Positions 8,177 to 9,051 of a stretch of DNA of 43,922 bases are shown here, piece by piece. The position numbers and the translations under genes were made by a program. Numbering within the stretch: the stretch's first letter is position 1; every line of letters begins with the position of its first letter. The notes beneath the pieces are model-generated. The model did not search any database and was not told the DNA's origin. It saw nothing but the letters and a program-made list of their open reading frames with translations. The stretch is taken from positions 1-43,922 of the IMG/VR virus record IMGVR_UViG_3300037225_000162. One strand, 5' to 3'. The DNA is from a virus.

Positions 8177-8374
8177 ATGTTTGACGATATTGATTTGACA
8201 GATGAGACTCTTGATTTTGATATTGAGGCTATTATCAAAGAAACACAAAAAGCCACTCTCGTATTAATCGAAGGCGAGGAAATTTGGGTGCCAAAAAGCA
8301 TATCCGTCATTGATGAAAAAGCTATGACTATATCGGTCCCGGAATGGTTTGCGAAGAGAGAGTCGTTACTATGA
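8177..8374 (+). CDS. Small acidic hypothetical protein
   Basis: 65 residues starting four bases after the sbcC-like stop. It is strongly acidic at the N-terminus (MFDDIDLTDETLDFDIE) and then has a small beta-like segment (EEIWVPKSISV). The ribosome site is weak (GGAGTTAGAAAT, partly in the previous stop), so translation may be coupled. No family recognised. Acidic small phage proteins can mimic DNA or bind nucleases, but no specific evidence exists here. Confidence 0.5.
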   Translation: MFDDIDLTDETLDFDIEAIIKETQKATLVLIEGEEIWVPKSISVIDEKAMTISVPEWFAKRESLL

Positions 8375-8379
8375 ATTAT

Positions 8380-8527
8380 GGACGTGCGGCGTGGTGCGAA
8401 CACGCTACCGAAATGGGGGCTGACCTGACCGGTCTGGCAAGTCAACGAGGTTTCGAGGAATGCGCTTGATGAAAAAGTACCCAATCCAAGAGAAACAAAG
8501 CCGGTTCAAATCCGGCCACGTCCACCA
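8380..8527 (+). ncRNA. tRNA-like element with encoded CCA end
   Basis: A perfect tRNA-type 3' half is present: T-stem/loop GCCGGTTCAAATCCGGC (8500-8516), acceptor strand CACGTCC (8517-8523), discriminator A and CCA (8525-8527). The exact complement GGACGTG lies at 8380-8386, so a 7-bp acceptor stem can close. The 113 bases between are too long for a tRNA and give no clear D arm and anticodon arm. They do contain a 5-bp hairpin at 8389-8405 with a 7-base loop (GTGCGAA) and a probable stem at 8421-8444. It is too short for tmRNA. Alternatives are a tRNA with an insertion, a tRNA-mimicking RNA, or an attP carrying the 3' end of a host tRNA gene (no integrase seen). Confidence 0.6.
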
Positions 8528-8607
8528 GAATAACACATATTGAAGGGTATGTTTATTTTTCCTTTCACAATTTAGACCGAAAAAATAAACATGAAGGAGA
8601 TTAACGA

Positions 8608-9051
8608 ATGATCAAAAACTATACATCCACCGTACCAGTAAACCGTAGTGTTCAGCACATTGAAGATTGCCTTATACGGCACGGCGCTAAGAATATCATG
8701 AAACTGTATGATGATGAAAAGAAACTGGAATCGCTTTGTTTTATCATCGCCGTAGATGGGAAAGATATTCCCTTCAAACTTCCGGCCTCGGCAGATCGCG
8801 TGGAAAAAGTTCTCAAAGCAGCCGTAAAAAAGCCAACGGCGGCAACCTACGATAGGATAAAGGAACAGGCGGAGCGGACAGCGTGGAAACTCCAAAGCGA
8901 TTGGGTGGATATCCAAATGTCACTTATCGAGCTTGATCAAGTTGAGATTATGCAGGTGTTTCTCGCCTACGTCTATTTCCCGGCGCAAAAGCAGACGTAT
9001 TTTGAGAAAATCAAAGGCAGCGGATATCCAATGCTGACGGAGAAAACATAA
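8608..9051 (+). CDS. Conserved phage protein of unknown function
   Basis: 147 residues with a strong ribosome site (GAAGGAGATTAACGA). Resembles a common phage protein family: an N-terminal part with a short beta hairpin (LCFIIAVDGKDIPFKL) followed by helices carrying QAERTAWKLQSDWVDIQMSL and a predicted amphipathic C-terminus. Function is not known to me. Its stop lies at the 5' edge of the HNH remnant, suggesting the endonuclease inserted or decayed next to this gene. Confidence 0.7.
   Translation: MIKNYTSTVPVNRSVQHIEDCLIRHGAKNIMKLYDDEKKLESLCFIIAVDGKDIPFKLPASADRVEKVLKAAVKKPTAATYDRIKEQAERTAWKLQSDWVDIQMSLIELDQVEIMQVFLAYVYFPAQKQTYFEKIKGSGYPMLTEKT

Follow-up and report, generated by a model that had tools for sequence, protein, structure and literature searches.

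What a tRNA-like sequence ending in CCA is doing between two protein genes of a phage is the question raised by positions 8380–8527 of an IMG/VR virus record, which we analysed over its whole stretch of 43,922 bases (hereafter, the window). The element lies on the + strand, is 148 nt long and is intergenic between two early genes. An earlier note on this DNA had described a perfect T arm, a 7-bp acceptor stem and a genomic CCA around a 113-base interior unlike that of a tRNA, and had placed the whole between protein genes of the early operon; each of these parts was found at its position, and the gene order around 8380–8527 confirmed the placement. Our leading, though tentative, reading of the sequence is that the element may serve for RNase P-type processing or as an insulator, with an RNA ending in CCA being released.

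Anatomy and neighbourhood of the element

The acceptor-like stem is built from GGACGTG at 8380–8386 (+ strand, with T at base −1) and its partner CACGTCC at 8517–8523, giving 7 bp as judged from sequence and pairing probability. The 3' strand directly follows the T arm, GCCGG-TTCAAAT-CCGGC (8500–8516), which is the sole part matched by the Rfam tRNA model (12.4 bits), and is itself followed in the sequence by a discriminator A (A73, 8524) and an encoded CCA (8525–8527). Between the 5' strand and the T arm lies the 113-nt non-tRNA interior (8387–8499), in which a hairpin is predicted at 8388–8406 (GGCGTG/CACGCT) together with weaker arms. All 12 acceptor and T pairs had probabilities of 0.98–1.0 in isolation and 0.93–0.99 in a 600 nt context.

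The odds of chance origin were estimated from 6,000 composition-matched order-2 Markov windows, with the acceptor partner allowed 20–150 nt upstream. A canonical T arm followed by 7 nt, N and CCA arose in 2/6,000 simulated windows, and the T arm and CCA together with a matching 7-bp acceptor strand in none of the 6,000. When the descriptor was loosened to any 7-bp stem directly adjoined by a 5-bp hairpin, this element was the one + strand site in the window. Folded in full length, the 148 nt scored modestly better than shuffles (z −1.8, 9/200), indicating that the interior is not clearly structured and that the strength of the element lies in its tRNA-like ends.

Upstream of the element are, in order, a RecT-like gene, SbcD, SbcC and the 65-aa ORF A, and downstream are a 147-aa gene and a helicase gene. 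Note that we take the first gene of the upstream block as RecT-like from its position; no family named it. ORF A (8177–8374, + strand; phrog_8389-like, function unknown) has its stop codon 5 nt upstream of the element, and the 147-aa protein (phrog_17260-like, function unknown) is encoded at 8608–9051 on the + strand. Furthermore, two tiny overlapping ORFs that did not appear in the earlier note cross the tRNA-like element on the + strand: ORF B (8371–8469, 32 codons, coding status uncertain), which overlaps ORF A through ATGA, and ORF C (8469–8543, 24 codons), which overlaps ORF B through TGATG. No + strand promoter was found directly before the element, the nearest match being at 8195–8224, and the count of promoter matches was at chance level. 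The sole terminator-like match lay on the minus strand, where it is the reverse reading of the T arm, and was rejected as a terminator.

Candidate processing by RNase P and the likeness to T4 species 1 RNA

The element is probably a structured RNA, which the host tRNA-cutting enzymes would process. Specifically, we propose that it is an intergenic part of the early transcript (RecT-like/SbcD/SbcC/helicase), with a closing stem and a 3' hairpin that copy the acceptor–T minihelix of a tRNA. Host RNase P would cut at 8379/8380 within the polycistronic RNA, five bases past the ORF A stop, and the tRNA 3'-end enzymes would trim the product to CCA. The cut would divide the recombination message on the upstream side from the 147-aa/helicase message that follows, and the processing would free a CCA-ended RNA of ~148 nt. 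As far as sequence can tell, the usual RNase P determinants are all present, namely U−1, G1–C72, the 7+5 bp stack, the T loop and A73-CCA. RCCA and U−1 are discussed for RNase P cleavage (PMC11143913), and RNase P substrates beyond tRNA include the P1/P7 C4 antisense RNA, an M3 phage RNA, the T4 gene 32 mRNA and other mRNAs (PMC11143913, PMC5320573).

The closest known RNA is T4 species 1 RNA (rnaC; NC_000866, 70908–71046), which is 139 nt long and has a T arm, CCGGG-TTCGAAT-CCCGG, abutting a closing stem around a non-tRNA interior. To our knowledge, no function has been assigned to the stable RNAs C and D of T4. We found rnaC in 710 phage records, and in two diverged phages compensatory changes preserve its T arm. 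In addition, rnaC was missed by ARAGORN and by the Rfam families, so that the absence of our element from both does not speak against a real RNA. The element belongs with rnaC and its Tevenvirinae relatives in being a phage-encoded RNA within 120–150 nt (139–148 nt among these RNAs), with a canonical T arm abutting a closing stem and a long non-tRNA interior. However, rnaC is located within a tRNA cluster, its acceptor-like helix is irregular and it encodes no CCA, whereas the element stands alone in a protein operon. The two show no sequence similarity, and a blast of the window region against phages gave no meaningful match.

This comparison bears on a possible but clearly less favoured explanation, in which the element is a stable trans-acting small RNA of rnaC type, excised by tRNA enzymes and having a function of its own, either as a decoy of an enzyme that binds or cuts tRNA or as an antisense RNA like P1/P7 C4. 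The shared topology and size, the wide spread of rnaC, its compensatory changes and its like invisibility to ARAGORN and Rfam speak for such an RNA. Against it stand the lack of a tRNA cluster and of sequence similarity to rnaC, the imperfect acceptor stem and missing CCA of rnaC itself, and the interior of the element, which is not clearly folded. As for C4, the element resembles it in being an intergenic phage RNA and in its GGA start, which fits the GGW motif at the C4 RNase P site (PMC5320573), and the counterpart in the relative G035 (see below) has a three-stem layout of 76 nt vs about 77. On the other hand, the T-arm end of C4 is not tRNA-like, no antirepressor target was identified for the element, and no Rfam covariance match to C4 antisense RNA was found in the window or G035.

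A second, independent case of such an RNA, here in a small phage that has no tRNA cluster around it and with the full set of RNase P determinants, would offer a simpler system for studying the roles of tRNA-like RNAs with non-tRNA interiors, be it in message processing, as decoys or as regulators, and would show that gene finders and Rfam overlook such elements.

The slot between sbcC and the helicase gene in relatives

The tRNA-like form is a single distinct sequence, present in the window and as an identical element in a near-identical copy of the phage (L022, contig C37 of genome G001). The nearest differing relative is G035 (contig C7, loci L026 and L046; the viral contig L031 is of the same kind), whose 147-aa protein is 84% identical. 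Its gene order is kept (RecT-like, SbcD, SbcC, 147-aa gene, helicase), with ORF A missing. After the SbcC stop, the G035 slot reads ACCGGCG, 37 nt, GCGGG-15 nt-CCCGC, CGCCGGT and CAAAA, and then GAATACACATAGAGGGTATG, which matches the 3' flank of the element in the window (GAATAACACATATTGAAGGGTATG.., 8528–8553, + strand). The G035 structure begins a few bases past the SbcC stop and ends just ahead of the shared GAATAnCACATA flank; it comprises a stem of 7 perfect pairs adjoined by a 5-bp hairpin, and has neither T loop nor CCA. Such a stem and hairpin occurred in shuffles at a rate of 0.25% anywhere and 0.04% at the same place, and this was the sole such site in 19.9 kb of prophage. A local alignment of the two slots runs from the T-arm region through the flank, its score being reached by 2/500 and 0/500 shuffles under two schemes, and the indels in it are not multiples of three, which argues for RNA over protein.

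The presence of a stem and hairpin at the same slot means that the closing stem differs in sequence yet keeps seven pairs in both phages. Since G035 is without T loop and CCA, the likeness across the two phages is one of stem arrangement, not of tRNA mimicry itself. These results are suggestive of a structured RNA conserved at the slot in the window phage and G035, two sequences not being proof. The term tRNA-mimic used in the earlier note holds for the window, where acceptor stem, T arm and CCA are real and beyond chance, and similar stems occur in G035; it does not extend to the G035 counterpart, which has no T loop or CCA. A further conjecture, which we regard as doubtful, is that the two represent a new class of phage operon RNA, an intergenic three- or four-way junction kept by structure rather than by sequence. 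In one lineage, the closing stem and 3' hairpin would have become a full acceptor–T minihelix with CCA, letting the host tRNA machinery excise, and possibly charge, a 148-nt non-tRNA from the recombination operon.

In none of the more distant relatives examined was the element found between sbcC and helicase, and no T arm with CCA was seen in the relatives of SbcD, the helicase and the 147-aa protein (L030–L045, L068–L075, L090–L097). A scan of viral contigs for the flank motif recovered one G035-type contig (L082) alone, with nine other loci read as chance matches. A stem with an abutting hairpin ahead of the 147-aa homologue in L039 is followed by a T run, reads as a terminator and was not counted.

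It is rather unlikely, though worth weighing, that the element is a non-functional relic, a tRNA-derived 3' end caught by recombination with a 5' acceptor match that is coincidental or decaying. Such an origin fits its occurrence in one phage lineage alone, the G035 counterpart without T loop and CCA, the interior unlike any tRNA and the variability of the sbcC–helicase slot among relatives. It fits poorly with 12 perfect base pairs and a CCA free of decay, with a 7-bp acceptor partner that we estimate would arise by chance at ~1%, and with the equivalent stem arrangement in G035.

Several minor observations were made on this region. The RecT-like/SbcD/SbcC/helicase block (the L046 module) is kept in several otherwise different virus contigs. 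In L068–L074, the slot between sbcD, sbcC and helicase holds differing small genes, e.g., an HNH/AP2-looking ORF (L072, 5974–6621), so that it looks like a cargo site. Long inverted repeats or hairpins, unrelated to each other, lie a short distance ahead of the ribosome-binding site that serves the 147-aa gene in the window (8549–8592) and in G035 (L026:3080–3125), and neither folds clearly better than shuffles. L022 differs from the window in one block of ~18 bp, opposite window 8241–8258, where GAAACACAAAAAGCCACT is replaced by GGTTTCAATCCACGCGCC. The latter resembles what we take to be the first bases of type I-C CRISPR repeats; no CRISPR array with this sequence was found in the MAG of L022, and the difference may stem from misassembly or from real recombination.

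Coding, attachment-site and tRNA-family explanations

We consider it improbable that the tRNA likeness arose by chance within a series of tiny genes coupled in translation (ORFs A, B and C). The ATGA and TGATG overlaps are of the kind expected from such a run, and codon scores of 0.13 for ORF B and 0.11 for ORF C are weakly coding-like, the 97.5th percentile of off-frame scores being 0.04. However, the simulated frequency was below 1 in 6,000 windows, the indels relative to G035 are non-triplet, the frame of ORF C is lost in the G035 alignment, G035 has no counterpart of either ORF B or ORF C, and PHROGs and Pfam yielded no relative of ORF B. Both the simulation and the non-triplet indels weigh against an explanation by coding alone.

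The earlier note had also raised the possibility of an attP. In that case, the 28 bases at 8500–8527 would be the site of phage attachment, taken over from a tRNA or tmRNA gene of the host. Such a site is very unlikely. The stretch from T arm to CCA is indeed a common att core, as in the attP and attR sites of tyrosine integrases in tRNA and tmRNA genes, and relatives integrate in such genes, G035 in ssrA and G164 in a tRNA-Leu gene. However, a tyrosine integrase is present in those relatives and absent from the window, the site lies inside the early operon rather than beside int, and the host tmRNA end differs from the 28-mer at 6/28 bases. No serine integrase was seen among the annotated ORFs of the window. 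The search of host genomes for a tRNA with the same 28-base end, which the earlier note had pointed to, found none. Among 84,980 species genomes, the exact sequence occurred in one copy, in a contig of a fen Syntrophaceae MAG, this contig being the same phage and carrying the element unaltered, and no tRNA within 3 mismatches was found in 155 genomes of the order to which that MAG belongs.

The att fragments of the relatives adjoin an integrase and show what form they take in this group, indicating that the element is not one of them. The G035 prophage is inserted at the 3' end of ssrA (tmRNA) with its integrase adjoining; in L046 (17305–18900, G035 contig C7) this end lies beside smpB, and the tyrosine integrase ends next to the tmRNA. 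In a terminase relative (L049; G164 contig C1, 43794–43873), the 3' half of an apparent tRNA-Leu with a CAA-type anticodon loop is found near an integrase and is a typical attR.

With regard to known RNA families, the acceptor stem, T arm and CCA of a tRNA are present in the element, and D and anticodon arms at canonical positions were found neither by ARAGORN nor by the Rfam tRNA model or a hairpin scan. ARAGORN called neither a tRNA nor a tmRNA at the element and no tRNA in the window, and Rfam called nothing at the element at gathering score. A permissive search gave a tmRNA match of 15.7 bits vs a threshold of 47, which covers acceptor and T arm alone with 326 model positions skipped, and there was no full-length tmRNA match above gathering score. 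The element is like tmRNA (RF00023) in enclosing a non-tRNA interior between acceptor stem and T arm with CCA, and unlike it in having 148 nt vs ~350 and no tmRNA D-loop, pseudoknots or tag. A permuted tmRNA was rejected, because the RF04321 match was the T arm plus a chance flank and a second acceptor strand is absent downstream. The bacterial tRNA introns known to us are group I introns and much longer, and the interrupted tRNA suggested earlier is not supported, given the ARAGORN null, the Rfam tRNA match to the T arm alone and the lack of a convincing anticodon arm. A genuine tRNA, be it aberrant or interrupted, or a tmRNA in miniature is hardly credible, the weak full-length local tmRNA match being its one sign and the missing D and anticodon arms, the skipped model positions and the lack of any tag-like ORF beginning within the element telling against it.

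Apart from the element, the left end of the record encodes a 383-aa leucine-rich-repeat protein (683–1834; LRR_4, 10 stretches) beside an Imm5-like protein.
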